A DNA stretch of 64,000 nt from an uncultured delta proteobacterium (lineage in GTDB: Bacteria > Myxococcota_A > Polyangia > Polyangiales > Polyangiaceae): positions 1-64,000 of the forward strand of contig CAIVJW010000032.1 of assembly GCA_903906315.1 (NCBI GenBank). The letters are read 5' to 3'. Made by a program: the position numbers and the translations under genes. The stretch's first letter is position 1; the number at the start of each line of letters is the position of its first letter. The notes under the pieces are model-generated. The model worked only from the letters and a program-made list of their open reading frames with translations. It did no database searches and had not been told where the DNA came from. Positions 39,209-44,725 of this stretch are shown piece after piece.

Positions 39209-40246
39209 CTACGGCGGTGCGGCGGCGGCGGAACCGTCCCCGATCGCCTCGCGAACGGCCAGCGCGAGCGCGCAGCTGTTCGCCTGCCGCTGACGCGCGT
39301 CGAGGACGTCGTCGTCGACCGCCGACGGCGTGCCGCCGAGCAGTTGCCCGCCCGCCTCGCGCCGGATCCGCACGACGTTCTTGCCGTCGGAGAGGCGCCA
39401 CACGCCGACGCGCGCCAGGTGCTTTGCAGCCTGGATCGCCTGCGTCGCCGTCCCACCGTCTCGCGCCGTGACCCCCGCAACCGGCTCGTCGAGCACGACG
39501 ATGAGGTACTGCGCTCGCGTGAGCAGATCGATCGCGACCGGAAGATCGTCGCGGACCGTGTCCTGAAACATCGCGGAGAGCAGCCGCAAGCGCAGCTCGG
39601 TCCCAGCGTCCTGAGCGTCCCGCACCCAATCGTCCGACAGCACGTTCATGGTGCGGTACGCGACGCGCAGGTTGTAGGGCTGCGCCGGCACCGTGCAGCG
39701 GTCGAGCTCGTTGCAAGTCTGCCCCACGGCGCAGTCGCGCGTGCGCTTGCACTCCGGCCCCGCGAGCGGACTCGGGTTCGACACGCGCAGGAGGCACGCG
39801 GTAAAGGCGTCGCGCAGCGAGCTCTTCAGCCCCTTGCGGAGCGTGTCGACGTCCTTCGCCTCCTCGACCCGCAATCGGAGGTAAAGGCCCGGTCGATCGC
39901 GAAAGTCCCAGCCCTTGAGGGCCTCGCGGTCCACGACCTCCGCGCCGGCATCCCGCGCGAGGTCGAGCGCCCACCCCTCGACCGAGCCACGCAGGCTCGT
40001 CCACTTGGGTCCGAGCTCGACGGCGACCGCGCGCTGCTCGGCCATCAACTTCTGCCGCGCGCTCTCGAGCTGCCCCTGGGACCACTTCCAGTGAAGGATG
40101 CCCGTGGCGGCGAGGATGACCGCGGTCCAACCCCAGAAGCGGGCCGGGGGGAAGCGCCTCTTCCCCCTCGCCTGCCGCGCCTCGTCAATCGCCTTGAGAC
40201 CGCGCTGCCGCGCCTCCTTCGGCGGGGCCTCGCGCTGCGGCGCCAT
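39209..40246 (-). CDS. Bitopic membrane protein with CX5CX5CX5C motif, 345 aa
   Basis: One membrane helix at about residues 36-53 after a basic, Arg/Lys-rich cytoplasmic start; the rest should be periplasmic. A coiled segment (about 55-80) leads to a domain with four evenly spaced Cys (166, 172, 178, 184), like the small Cys motifs common in myxobacterial envelope proteins, probably two disulfides. It is the last gene of the minus-strand motor cluster, three bases behind a TolR-like gene, so it probably belongs to that machine as a periplasmic partner (inference). No family was recognised. Confidence 0.75.
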   Translation of the reverse strand: MAPQREAPPKEARQRGLKAIDEARQARGKRRFPPARFWGWTAVILAATGILHWKWSQGQLESARQKLMAEQRAVAVELGPKWTSLRGSVEGWALDLARDAGAEVVDREALKGWDFRDRPGLYLRLRVEEAKDVDTLRKGLKSSLRDAFTACLLRVSNPSPLAGPECKRTRDCAVGQTCNELDRCTVPAQPYNLRVAYRTMNVLSDDWVRDAQDAGTELRLRLLSAMFQDTVRDDLPVAIDLLTRAQYLIVVLDEPVAGVTARDGGTATQAIQAAKHLARVGVWRLSDGKNVVRIRREAGGQLLGGTPSAVDDDVLDARQRQANSCALALAVREAIGDGSAAAAPP

Positions 40247-40249
40247 CGT

Positions 40250-40831
40250 TCAGCCGCCGCTCTTCGAGATCTTGCCAACCATGAAGCTGACGTTCGGGTA
40301 GCCCGCAAACGCAGCCGTCTGGAACACGCTCTTCACCACGAGCGCGGGCACGTTCTCGTCGACCTGCAGGATGCAGACGCCCGGGAACGGCCTGTTGGGC
40401 TGCAGCTGCTTCCAGAGCTCGCGCTTGTTCTTCATCATGCTGAAGAGCTCGTCGAGCTTCTGCAGGCGGCCGAGCTCCTCGATCGCGCGGGTCGACCCTG
40501 CGAGCTGCCCGTCCACCAGAATCTGATTGCCGTTCACGGCGATCATGGGGGCGTCAATGACGTCCTCGACGTTCTCCGCCTTGGGCAGCTTGACGCTCTT
40601 GTCGACGCCGATCTCGCCCGACGCCGAGAACGACATCAGGAGGAAGATGACGGTCACCATGAGGAAGTCGATGTAGCTCGTCAGGTTGAGGGAGGTGTTG
40701 GCCGATCTGGCCCCATGCCCCATCACCTTGCTCCACACGAACTTCAGCGGCACGCTGTGCATCAGCCGAGAGCCCGGCTTGTGAATGACGTGCGCGTGCG
40801 GGTTGTGGTGCTTCCTCGAAAAATGGTCCAT
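40250..40831 (-). CDS. ExbD/TolR-type motor protein, 193 aa
   Basis: A bitopic protein with a cytoplasmic, His-rich N-terminus (residues 1-45), one membrane helix starting TSYIDFLMVTVIFLL, and a periplasmic domain. Asp55 sits at the position of the proton-conducting Asp of TolR/ExbD. The periplasmic part (IAVNGNQILVDGQL, then CILQVDENVPALVVKSVF) has the usual strand pattern. It would pair with the TolQ-type protein at 41493-42149 to use proton motive force. It is the second of two TolR-like genes in this cluster, 12 bases behind the first. Confidence 0.9.
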   Translation of the reverse strand: MDHFSRKHHNPHAHVIHKPGSRLMHSVPLKFVWSKVMGHGARSANTSLNLTSYIDFLMVTVIFLLMSFSASGEIGVDKSVKLPKAENVEDVIDAPMIAVNGNQILVDGQLAGSTRAIEELGRLQKLDELFSMMKNKRELWKQLQPNRPFPGVCILQVDENVPALVVKSVFQTAAFAGYPNVSFMVGKISKSGG

Positions 40832-40843
40832 CGCGCGCTCCCG

Positions 40844-41413
40844 TCAGCGGACCGAGAAGGTCATGTTGAAGACGGGGATCTGCTTGACCGACCCGTCGTT
40901 GAACTTCATGTCGCGCTTCGTCGTGTAGAGCGCGTCCAGGACCGCGACGATCTCCTTGAAGGGAGTGCGGTTGTCGCTGTGCAGGATGCACTGGTCGAGC
41001 TTGCGGTCGCTCGGGTCCCAGTGATTCTTCTGCTGCTTCCACTCCTCCTCGAGCTTCTTGGCGAGCTCCGGGAAGCGGATGATCTTGCGGTCGGCCTGCT
41101 CCGTCTCGACCTGGGTCTTGGGGACCTTGATCTCGCTGACGACGGTGGCGCCCTGCTTCCAGACGAGCCCGAACTCGTTCTCGCCGATGTGAAGGTTGAG
41201 CACCTTCTCCGGCGGAACCGGCTGCAGCTCGACCGTCGGATTCGGGGGGCCCGGCACCTGCGCGTCGGCGTTGATGCGCGAGTTCGTCACCCAAACGGCC
41301 GTGATCAGCAAGAAGGCGACCGTGACCATCAAGAGATCGATGAACGGGATCATATTGATCTCCGTATTGGTCGAGCGCTTCTTGGACTCACCGCCGACGT
41401 CGACGCCACTCAT
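40844..41413 (-). CDS. ExbD/TolR-type motor protein, 189 aa
   Basis: A bitopic TolR/ExbD homologue. After a short charged start comes INMIPFIDLLMVTVAFLLIT, with Asp26 as the conserved proton-path residue. The periplasmic part is longer than in TolR, rich in Lys and Glu (KKLEEEWKQQKNHWDPSDRK), and includes two strand pairs. It is 79 bases downstream of the TolQ-type gene and 12 bases before the second TolR-type gene. The two TolR paralogues differ clearly in their periplasmic domains, so they are probably not redundant. Confidence 0.92.
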   Translation of the reverse strand: MSGVDVGGESKKRSTNTEINMIPFIDLLMVTVAFLLITAVWVTNSRINADAQVPGPPNPTVELQPVPPEKVLNLHIGENEFGLVWKQGATVVSEIKVPKTQVETEQADRKIIRFPELAKKLEEEWKQQKNHWDPSDRKLDQCILHSDNRTPFKEIVAVLDALYTTKRDMKFNDGSVKQIPVFNMTFSVR

Positions 41414-41492: not shown

Positions 41493-42149
41493 TCAGGCCT
41501 GGTTGACGGCCGCGAGGTTCACCTTCTGGCGATTCGAGACGACGAGGTTGAGGATCTGGACCGACGCCTCGTTGATGTCGTCCTCGATCGACTGGGTCTT
41601 GCCGTTGAGCACGGCGAAGCCGATGAGGCCGACGATGGCGACGCCGAGCCCGAACGCCGTGCAGTTCATGGCCTCCGAGATGCCCTGCGCGAGCACGCGG
41701 GCCTTCTGGCTCGGGTCGACCGACTCGCCGGCGACGGAGCCGAAGGACTTGATGAGGCCGGTCACGGTGCCGAGCAGGCCCGAGAGCATCGCCAGGTTGG
41801 CGAGGAGGGCGAGGTAGTTCGTCCGCGCGCCGACCTTGGGCATCTCGCGGAGCGCGGCCTCGTCCATCGCGGCCTGAACCTCCTCATCGGGACGGTTCAC
41901 CTTCACGAGGCCGGCCTGCACGATGCGGGCGAGGGGCGCGTTCGCCGCGGAGCACATCTTCACGGCCTTGGCGACGTCGCCCGCGAGGATGCACTTCTGC
42001 ATCGTGGCGAGGAAGACGTCCTTGTTGATGGACGAGCCGAAGAGGAAGAGGGAGCGCTCGACGATGATGCCGATGGTGATGATCGACCAGAACAGGATGA
42101 ACCACATCCCCCAGCCGCCCTCTTTGAAGTGTTCGTACGCAGCGTGCAT
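41493..42149 (-). CDS. MotA/TolQ/ExbB-type proton channel protein, 218 aa
   Basis: A three-helix inner-membrane protein of the MotA/TolQ/ExbB family. The first helix is MWFILFWSIITIGIIVERSLF. A cytoplasmic region (about 40-110) precedes the other two helices, which carry LSGLLGTVTGLIKSF and EAMNCTAFGLGVAIVGLIGF, the family's conserved blocks. It would form the stator ring around TolR-like dimers. The ATG at 42149 has a GGAGAT ribosome-binding site, and the in-frame region upstream is not coding-like. It is the first gene of the minus-strand cluster; a predicted promoter lies at 42213-42242. Confidence 0.93.
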   Translation of the reverse strand: MHAAYEHFKEGGWGMWFILFWSIITIGIIVERSLFLFGSSINKDVFLATMQKCILAGDVAKAVKMCSAANAPLARIVQAGLVKVNRPDEEVQAAMDEAALREMPKVGARTNYLALLANLAMLSGLLGTVTGLIKSFGSVAGESVDPSQKARVLAQGISEAMNCTAFGLGVAIVGLIGFAVLNGKTQSIEDDINEASVQILNLVVSNRQKVNLAAVNQA

Positions 42150-42212
42150 CTGATCTCCTCCGGTTCGCCTTCGATGATGGCCACGTGAAGTACATCCGCG
42201 TGGATGGCCCGC

Positions 42213-42242
42213 ATCTTCGCGATTGAGACGCGCGCACGTCAA
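42213..42242 (-). promoter_or_regulatory. Predicted promoter of the minus-strand motor cluster
   Basis: On the minus strand TTGACG (42242-42237) is a good -35. After 18 bases, GAAGAT (42218-42213) is a weak -10. The leader to the ATG at 42149 would be about 57 bases. Confidence 0.4.
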
Positions 42243-42669
42243 GACAGATTTGGTCGGCCGCGATCGTCTCGTGACGGCGAAAAATTCCAACGACTCTAGG
42301 AGGTTATTCACCTCACCTGCGAAGGCTCGAGCGCACGTTGCCCCTCGCTCGAAGCCGGCGTCGTCGCGCTCCCGCCGAGACATTCCGGTGTCGAGAGAAG
42401 TTTGCAGAGTGAACGCCCGACGCCGCAGCGTCGCGGCGGCAGACGCTCCTCGTCGGCGCAACCTCGCCACCTCCCTCCTCAGTTGAGGAAGCGGGCCTCG
42501 ACGAGGTCTCGCGCGAAGCGCGCGGTGCGGCGGGCCGGTTGCGCTACGGCACGCGGGGAGCGGGACCCCCACCGATTCGGTCGAGCGGCGCGAGCCGCAG
42601 CGTGGCCCCTGCCGCGCAACGGGGAGAGCGCACCGCGAATGGTTCTCGCGGGGTCGAACAGGACGAAGC

Positions 42670-42699
42670 TTGCGCGCAGGATCTGGCGACGGTTATAGT
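42670..42699 (+). promoter_or_regulatory. Predicted promoter of the plus-strand motor cluster
   Basis: A -35-like TTGCGC (42670-42675), an 18-base spacer and a good -10, TATAGT (42694-42699), the best -10 match in this region. Transcription would start about 155 bases before the ATG at 42861. Confidence 0.5.
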
Positions 42700-42860
42700 C
42701 GGGCCGCGCGCGCGTCCATCGACGTGCAGCGCGTACGCGGCGACGGGGCCTTCCAGGGCCTCGAGCCCCTGCGGCGATCGAGGCGAGCGCCGCGGGGATC
42801 CCGGTCAAATCGGGCGACCCGGATCCGGTTCATGCGACGCTGAGGAAAGGAACTTCGAGG

Positions 42861-43538
42861 ATGCGTCATCTGCTGATGTTGGCCGCCGAGGGTGGTGGCG
42901 AAGCGAGCGCGGTTCAGGCCATCAAGGACAACCCGACGTTCCTCCTGATGAACCTGATCGTCTCCGCGATCGTGATCACCATCATCATCGAACGCACCGC
43001 CTTCCAGCTCGGGCGGTACCGGGTCAACTCCAAGGAGTTCTTCGCCCAGATCAAGAAGCTCGTCGCCGCCGGTAACATCGACCGGGCGATCAAGCTCTGC
43101 GACGCGAGCGACTACCCGATCCTGCAGCTCGTGAAGGCGGGCCTGACCCACGCGAACAAGGGCGCGGACGAAATCGACGCCGCTCTTTCGGAGAAGCTCT
43201 CCGAGCTCAAGCCCCAGGTGGAGAAGCGCATCGGCGCCCTGTGGTCCCTCGCGAACATCGCGACGCTCATCGGCCTCATCGGCACGGTGGCCGGCCTGAT
43301 TCACACGTTCGCCTCGATCTCAGCGCAGGGTCTCTCGGCGTCGGACAAGCAGCGCATGCTGTCGAACGGCATCGCGGAGGCCATGTACAACACGGCGTTC
43401 GGCCTGAGCATCGCCGTCGTCTGCATGATCGCGCACGTGCTCATCCACACGCGCTCGAAGGCCATCCAGCACGACCTGGAGTCCACCACCGAGCGCGTCT
43501 TCAACCTGCTGACCATCAGCGGCAAGCCCGGCTACTAG
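42861..43538 (+). CDS. MotA/TolQ/ExbB-type proton channel protein, 225 aa
   Basis: Second TolQ-type protein of the window. Its first helix (FLLMNLIVSAIVITIIIERTAF) is preceded by a short periplasmic start. The cytoplasmic region contains ILQLVKAGL, and the later helices carry ATLIGLIGTVAGLIHTF and EAMYNTAFGLSIAVVCMIAH. It differs clearly from the minus-strand paralogue, so the two motors are separate rather than a recent duplication. The ATG at 42861 follows an AGGAA-type site. Two TolR-type genes follow on the plus strand. Confidence 0.93.
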   Translation: MRHLLMLAAEGGGEASAVQAIKDNPTFLLMNLIVSAIVITIIIERTAFQLGRYRVNSKEFFAQIKKLVAAGNIDRAIKLCDASDYPILQLVKAGLTHANKGADEIDAALSEKLSELKPQVEKRIGALWSLANIATLIGLIGTVAGLIHTFASISAQGLSASDKQRMLSNGIAEAMYNTAFGLSIAVVCMIAHVLIHTRSKAIQHDLESTTERVFNLLTISGKPGY

Positions 43539-43553
43539 CCCGAGGCTCGGTCC

Positions 43554-44117
43554 ATGGCCGAAAACGAAGAAGCCCCGCTCAGCCCTGCTCAGCGGTCAAG
43601 AATCCGGCGGCTCTCGCAGCCGCGCGAGCCGGACGTCGGTGAAGAGGCCGGAGAGATCCAGCTCGTGCCGTACCTCGACATCATCACCAACGTGATGATG
43701 TTCGTGCTCGCGAGCATCTCGGTCACCTTCGTCGCATCCATCGACACCACGCCGCCTTCGATCGGCGGCGGGAAGGTGCGCGTCGATGCCTCGCAGAAGG
43801 CGCTCAACCTGTCTGCAGTCATCACGAGCCAGGGCGTGTCCCTGAAGACGTCGGGCGGCAACGTCTCGACGGGCTGCCAGGACGTCGGTGCCGGCATCAC
43901 CGTGCCGAAGGCCGGCGAGGACCACGACTACAAGTCGCTCACCGCCTGCGCGAAACGCCTCAAGAACGCGCGCCCCGAGTTCAAGGAGGAGACGCAGGTG
44001 ACCATCACGGCGAGCCCCGGCATCGAGTACCAGACCGTGATCGGCGTGATGGATGCGCTGCGCAGCGACGGCGTCGAGGAGCTGTTCCCCGAGGTCCACT
44101 TCGGAGTGGCGCGATGA
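43554..44117 (+). CDS. ExbD/TolR-type motor protein, 187 aa
   Basis: A bitopic TolR-like protein. The cytoplasmic tail is about 40 residues, then LVPYLDIITNVMMFVLASI with Asp42 at the proton-path position. The periplasmic part has two Cys (in GCQDVG and TACAKR) that could form a disulfide, and it ends in the typical YQTVIGVMDALRSDGVEELFPEVHFG. It lies 15 bases after the TolQ-type gene, and its TGA overlaps the next ATG (ATGA), so the two TolR-like proteins are translationally coupled. Confidence 0.92.
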   Translation: MAENEEAPLSPAQRSRIRRLSQPREPDVGEEAGEIQLVPYLDIITNVMMFVLASISVTFVASIDTTPPSIGGGKVRVDASQKALNLSAVITSQGVSLKTSGGNVSTGCQDVGAGITVPKAGEDHDYKSLTACAKRLKNARPEFKEETQVTITASPGIEYQTVIGVMDALRSDGVEELFPEVHFGVAR

Positions 44118-44725
44118 CCGGCGACCGGCCCAGCTCCCCGCAGCCCGCCAGGAAGGCGAGCATCGTCCGCTACAAGGCGGCGCTGCGAAAGTCCGTCCGG
44201 CGCAACGCCAAGGAGCCGGAGATCGACTTCTTGAACATCACCGCGATGCTCGACCTGATGACGATCATCCTCGTCTTCATGCTCAAGAGCGTCGGGTCCT
44301 CTTCGGCGTCGATCCCGCAGTCCAAGGATCTGACCTTGCCGGTGAGCTTCATGTCGACCGATCCCGCCCAGGAGGGTGTCGTCGTCATGATCTCGAAGTC
44401 GCAGATTCTGGTCGGCGACAACTCGACGCCGGTGCTGATGCTGCCGAGCCGGGAGCAACTGTCGCAGTCCGGGGTCGACGCGAAGTACAAGAAGAGCGGG
44501 CCGAACGATCTCTACATCGTCCCTCTCGCGAACGCGCTCACTCACGCGCGGGACATGGACAAGCAGATCCGCATCGCCAAGAAGCTCGATCCCTCGAGCT
44601 CTGAAGCGATCATCGTGGCGGATGCGACGACGCCCTACCGTCTGCTCATCGAGGTGCTCTTCACCCTCGGACAGAGCGAGTACGGAAAGTATCACATGAT
44701 GGTAATGAGCGGCAAGAAGCGCTAG
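44114..44725 (+). CDS. ExbD/TolR-type motor protein, 203 aa
   Basis: The second TolR-like protein of this module. Its cytoplasmic part is about 40 residues and very basic (RKASIVRYKAALRKSVRRNAK). The helix FLNITAMLDLMTIILVFML follows, with Asp47 at the proton-path position. The periplasmic domain is about 140 residues, with IIVADATTPYRLLIEVLFTLG as the family's C-terminal block. Together with the two upstream genes it gives one TolQ plus two TolR, the composition of the AglRQS gliding motor of Myxococcus. A strong terminator follows. Confidence 0.92.
   Translation: MTGDRPSSPQPARKASIVRYKAALRKSVRRNAKEPEIDFLNITAMLDLMTIILVFMLKSVGSSSASIPQSKDLTLPVSFMSTDPAQEGVVVMISKSQILVGDNSTPVLMLPSREQLSQSGVDAKYKKSGPNDLYIVPLANALTHARDMDKQIRIAKKLDPSSSEAIIVADATTPYRLLIEVLFTLGQSEYGKYHMMVMSGKKR

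Follow-up and report, generated by a model that had tools for sequence, protein, structure and literature searches.

Motors of the MotA/TolQ/ExbB family are built as a ring of Q subunits around R subunits, with an Asp as the proton site. The closest described counterparts of the locus analyzed here are two gene sets of Myxococcus xanthus. One is the gliding motor AglRQS (MXAN_6862-6860, cluster M1), whose AglR, AglQ and AglS proteins measure 245, 162 and 194 aa, with ExbD domains at residues 15–158 and 28–176 (PMC3169522). The other, M2 (MXAN_3003-3005), is the only additional complete set in that species (PMC3858216; PMC3169522). Cells deleted for MXAN_3004 showed no appreciable change in motility and formed viable spores, and two-hybrid assays detected no binding of the AglR homologue MXAN_3003 to GltG or NfsG (PMC3858216, PMC3169522). 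Since the deletion left motility and sporulation without defect, M2 has no known job. Agl and Glt homologues have also been described in Sorangium by Luciano et al, whose supplementary maps may already show the two motor sets as neighbours (PMC3169522).

The combination of one Q with two R proteins also occurs in the TonB-type exbB-exbD-exbD operon around MXAN_1448 of M. xanthus (PMC8546572) and in the vWA-linked tolQ and two tolR genes of PVC bacteria (PMC12204202). Compared from the published reports, these operons share the composition but differ in their Ton or vWA linkage. The original prediction had noted one TolQ plus two TolR proteins as the make-up of AglRQS; because these other operons have the same composition, we dropped it as a mark of AglRQS.

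Layout of the divergent locus

The window, a stretch of 64,000 nucleotides, contains two TolQ-TolR-TolR operons lying back to back over a 711-bp region, as open reading frames, translations and Pfam searches all confirm; the six module genes belong to MotA_ExbB or ExbD with scores over the gathering score. Module A, on the minus strand, starts with the TolQ/MotA-type subunit P0001, the AglR orthologue (41493..42149; 218 aa counted from the ATG; PF01618, 87.6 bits), followed by the first TolR/ExbD-type subunit P0002, of AglQ type with Asp26 (40844..41413; 189 aa; PF02472, 54.7 bits), and the second, P0003, of AglS type with Asp55 (40250..40831; 193 aa; PF02472, 37.7 bits). The operon ends with a fourth minus-strand gene, P0004 (39209..40246; 345 aa), without a Pfam or NCBIfam family match. 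Module B, on the plus strand, consists of the TolQ/MotA-type P0005, an AglR paralogue of M2 type (42861..43538; PF01618, 88.6 bits), and the first and second TolR/ExbD-type subunits P0006 (Asp42; 43554..44117; PF02472, 35.6 bits) and P0007 (Asp47; 44114..44725; PF02472, 34.0 bits). The span initially given for the locus, 41493–44725, holds both Q genes and the plus-strand TolR genes but leaves the minus-strand TolR genes (40250–41413) and the fourth gene (39209–40246) outside. A 359-aa open reading frame listed at 41493–42572 is a start-codon extension of the P0001 gene. The two Q proteins share 35% identity.

All four TolR-like proteins do keep the membrane Asp that had been predicted for them (residues 26, 55, 42 and 47), and it is invariant across the order in each of four R alignments of 21 rows apiece. 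The residue is likewise present in 130/130 RA1, 121/121 RA2 and 72/72 RB2 proteins.

Annotation of the locus agrees with the original prediction that no TonB, TolA, TolB or Pal gene lies beside the modules. A glycerate-kinase-like gene (DUF4147/MOFRL) flanks one side; on the other are an SNF2 helicase gene and an H+-pyrophosphatase homologue (PF03030; 48455–50818, minus strand). The PF03030 homologue recurs near module B (L040, L041, L043, L046, L057, L085), also beyond Polyangiales, and in several genomes immediately adjoins it, placing a proton pump gene next to a putatively proton-driven motor.

The control region between the operons (42150..42860) is exactly 711 bp long, within the 330–1146 bp (median 639) spanned by the spacers of 20 loci from the order. 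In an alignment of five same-family loci its ribosome-binding ends are conserved, and a TTGCGC-N18-TATAGT block at 42670–42699, 161 bp ahead of module B, is conserved in four of the five close loci. A strict scan for sigma-70 promoters and terminators across the 711 bp returned no matches; the block is a candidate promoter judging by its sequence. Divergent transcription from one region suggests that both modules are regulated jointly.

Phylogenetic placement of the two modules

We identified AglRQS and M2 of M. xanthus DK1622 indirectly, through relatives, protein lengths, domain positions and published papers. In Pyxidicoccus fallax, the set A proteins are 245, 161 and 194 aa long with ExbD domains at 14–157 and 29–177, whereas those of set B (15–157 in a 173-aa protein, and 42–189) do not fit AglRQS; because the lengths and ExbD positions of set A, and not of set B, match M. 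xanthus, set A is AglRQS. Asp28 of AglQ was also considered as a discriminator and rejected: the Myxococcaceae have Asp at position 28 in both sets, and so the assignment relies on lengths and domain positions. We take the second complete set of Myxococcaceae to be M2, M. xanthus having no more than two such sets (PMC3858216).

A concatenated Q+R1+R2 tree separated the two modules with support of 100/100. Clade A includes AglRQS of six named Myxococcaceae/Archangiaceae, and clade B the second set from five of those six genomes. In the Q-only tree, P0001 grouped with the set A Q proteins of named Myxococcaceae and Anaeromyxobacter (support 93/92, not starred), while Escherichia coli TolQ and ExbB and the genome's own Tol/Ton-type Q proteins fell outside the module clades at 100/100. 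Neither module thus lies inside a TonB- or Tol-associated group, the outcome that would have spoken against the original prediction. The R tree places R1 apart from R2 and A broadly apart from B, as in the Q tree, with unstable deep R1 branches.

P0001 is 52–54% identical to the AglR-type Q of Myxococcus and Pyxidicoccus versus 35–36% to the second-set Q, the best match of P0002 outside the order is RA1 of Myxococcaceae, and P0003 clusters with RA2 of Myxococcaceae in the R tree. Phylogeny thus identifies the minus-strand module (P0001–P0003) as the AglRQS gliding motor. It has a single TolQ-like gene followed by two different TolR-like genes (Q-R-R), both of whose products carry the membrane Asp, and it groups with Myxococcaceae AglRQS, away from TolQR and ExbBD as well as from the second Agl-like set. 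It resembles M. xanthus AglRQS in the Q-R1-R2 order, both Asp residues, its clade and the location of Glt genes elsewhere in the genome; the Polyangiales operon differs by the addition of P0004 and of divergent module B, while AglRQS in the Myxococcaceae loci we read stands alone, ahead of a HAD-type phosphatase gene. The nearest named Q to that of the window, from Sorangium, is 89% identical, indicating that the window comes from a Polyangiaceae relative. Further TolR copies of the module A type lie either downstream of the main locus or away from it (L055:9915-10948, L168, L224).

The likeness to AglRQS originally proposed for both modules therefore reflects real homology for one of them, and the minus-strand module alone is AglRQS. 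The plus-strand module (P0005–P0007) is, on the trees, a separate ancient clade and a different paralogue, split from Myxococcaceae AglRQS at 100/100 and joined in the Q, R and concatenated trees to the second complete Agl-like set that Myxococcaceae carry. P0005 is 42–43% identical to that set versus 36–37% to the AglR type, and P0006 and P0007 cluster in the R tree with RB1 and RB2 of Myxococcaceae, respectively. Module B is thus best matched to M2 (MXAN_3003-3005), which is likewise a second complete Agl-like set in a phylum-wide clade. In Myxococcaceae, the M2 set has topA and trmFO as neighbours and no linkage to AglRQS (in M. dinghuensis we read it between topA-like and trmFO-like genes), whereas the Polyangiales set adjoins AglRQS in back-to-back orientation. 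That the two modules may have separate jobs, as originally suggested, agrees with the published M2 data, which come from another species, M. xanthus.

Relatives of module B in other Myxococcota families sit inside GltD-GltE-Q-R-R-GltG-outer-membrane-protein-export clusters, hence motors of this kind can work with Glt-like machinery. These clusters (L071-L073, L075, L088) have module-B-side motor genes in common with the window; unlike it, they are embedded in Glt-like and polysaccharide-export genes and have lost the R1 Asp, and no such Glt-like or export genes lie beside the window locus. The first TolR-like subunit lacks the membrane Asp (N, S or G instead) in 8/8 Glt-linked loci of the module-B-side motor (L071-L073, L075, L064, L065, L088, L085). 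Overall, 9 of 79 RB1 proteins lack it and all the rest keep it, as does the second TolR, RB2, throughout; the Glt-linked motor may naturally work with a single Asp. In the Q tree, the module B sequences of two genomes belonging to a different class (L082, L083; G114, G088) nest within Polyangiales, a position suggestive of horizontal transfer. The module B alignment was also run against viral contigs and found no relatives there.

Conservation of the pair and of the fourth gene

Both modules are present across Myxococcota. Among 59 Polyangiales genomes, the module A Q gene was found in 55 and the module B Q gene in 54. Both modules share a contig in 49 and are close and divergent in all 49, so the predicted conservation of the pair across Polyangiales held in the survey; most of the remaining genomes have contig ends or low completeness. 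Each of the 20 loci read, from several families, has the arrangement Q-R-R | Q-R-R in divergent orientation, and the same six genes in the same layout in all 20 argue against chance. The pair also occurs in the named organisms Sorangium cellulosum So ceGT47 and Polyangium sp. y55x31. One genus (G004, G135) retains A and has lost B, showing that A does not need B. Outside the order, A and B genes are on different contigs in four sister-order genomes (G096, G122, G131, G196) and apart in seven Myxococcaceae/Archangiaceae genomes, so that linkage is a Polyangiales trait in these samples; as the survey covers a sampled genome set, exceptions may exist. An M2-type motor beside the gliding motor in nearly every Polyangiales genome with usable contigs points to a shared context, and makes this pairing a tractable place to look for the job of M2.

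The P0004 family was detected in 32/32 genomes of the order and in 0/156 others of the phylum (E ≤ 1e-5), and the gene directly follows R2 of module A in 30 of the 32. Its AlphaFold2 model (mean pLDDT 89.5) consists of a helix at residues 35–98 and then a globular domain; the first third of the helix is predicted to cross the membrane, the rest forming a periplasmic stalk to the globular head. Cysteines C151 and C325 are invariant, making a disulfide between them in the periplasm plausible. Foldseek returned nothing for the model at E ≤ 0.001. VIA-align gave Z scores of 4–6 to PelC, CsgG, the TolB N-domain and LpoB-like periplasmic domains; these lie within the range expected for unrelated models and offer only a lead. 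A TonB/TolA-type transducer was considered and rejected, as P0004 has no TonB_C or other family match and its membrane helix lacks a conserved His. Most likely, P0004 is a periplasmic accessory of the AglRQS motor, serving to anchor or couple it. This order-specific family is a candidate for a new subunit in a bacterial gliding motor that is otherwise well studied. Divergent second copies occur away from motor genes (G000:C271:14434-15144, L219; also in G013, G148, G021 and G007).

AglRQS and M2 were already known. As far as we found, the order-wide divergent pairing and the P0004 family are new: no report of either turned up in the literature that we searched.

Proposed mechanism and alternative readings

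In the window genome (8.79 Mb in 455 contigs), MotA_ExbB genes number five and ExbD genes six; the genome also encodes the Glt partner expected of AglRQS, GltG above all. Contig C127 carries genes for a GltD-like protein (1280 aa), a GltE-like protein, an 86-aa protein, GltG (326 bits), a TPR protein and a giant TPR protein, in an order much like that of M. xanthus cluster G1 (PMC3169522); the 86-aa gene, between the GltE-like gene and GltG, is gltF-like. A second full-length GltG-family match (307 bits) lies on a different contig. GltG-family matches occur in every genome of the order sampled, with GltG scores below the 650-bit equivalog cut-off in the window genome (326) and in all 282 sampled genomes. 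Module A of the sister-order genome G196 has a full-length GltG gene (423 bits) as its neighbour. Two further single Q-R pairs of the window genome are each followed by a TonB-like gene, indicating that Ton/Tol-type duties are covered elsewhere in the genome. A flagellar MotA (284.6 bits on the MotA model) is encoded on another contig beside MotB-like and basal-body genes, and the module Q proteins score below 17.5 bits on MotA-type models, which sets both modules apart from flagellar MotAB stators. Besides the gliding motor set, the window genome (G000) thus has flagellar genes: MotA, MotB-like, FlgA/FlgG-like, FliF-like and FliG-like genes on contig C107 (L076).

We consider it probable that the locus encodes two proton-driven inner-membrane motors of the AglRQS superfamily, A being the AglRQS orthologue for Glt and B the M2 paralogue. 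In module A, a ring of TolQ-like AglR would surround two different TolR-like axle subunits, AglQ and AglS; because both R genes have the Asp and R1 and R2 are different proteins, an R1–R2 pair would form the axle, although the stoichiometry is presumed. If the analogy with 5:2 motors holds, protons passing the membrane Asp would produce movement, and this movement would reach the Glt complex, whose GltG and TPR proteins are encoded elsewhere in the genome, for gliding or other surface transport. Coupling to Glt, binding of AglR to GltG and a gliding role in this organism are transferred from the described system and would hold by analogy. P0004 would be a fourth, membrane-anchored periplasmic protein gained by the Polyangiales AglRQS operon, coupling or anchoring the motor, and module B a second motor driving another partner, with the divergent promoters allowing joint control.

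That both modules are ordinary Tol- or Ton-type energisers is scarcely credible. They share MotA_ExbB and ExbD domains with such systems, but the trees contradict this reading by leaving E. coli TolQ/ExbB, and the Ton/Tol-type pairs of the window genome, outside; the Q proteins score only 65.8 and 63.4 bits against the 221-bit NCBIfam cut-off for TolQ, and 38.1 and 41.0 against the 206.2-bit cut-off for ExbB, and the locus has no TolA, TolB, Pal or TonB gene. Order-wide physical linkage could instead reflect one mixed motor with subunits swapped between the modules. We regard this as improbable, given that A and B are unlinked in sister orders and Myxococcaceae, that Q, R1 and R2 form separate co-inherited families and that one genus lost module B alone.

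A more serious alternative concerns the output of module A, which might be AglRQS by descent yet work here mainly in other surface transport, such as moving polymers or spore coat in the manner of Nfs, in place of gliding. M. xanthus AglRQS also drives Nfs in sporulation (PMC3858216), the window genome has flagellar genes, and at least two full-length GltG homologues lie on different contigs; against this, its own cluster retains the gltD-E-F-G order of gliding cluster G1. We hold this version possible but doubtful. The preferred reading of two separate motors could also be extended to a two-motor surface machine, in which AglRQS with P0004 and a co-expressed M2-type motor act in opposite or complementary fashion and set direction or load. 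We think this unlikely; if it were true, Polyangiales would reveal the M2 function that is missing in M. xanthus.

Myxococcota-type AglRQS genes also turned up in records titled Comamonas sp. (L114, BNCN01000005.1) and Klebsiella pneumoniae (L148, CAMDBH010000001.1), where the labels look wrong or the assemblies contaminated.
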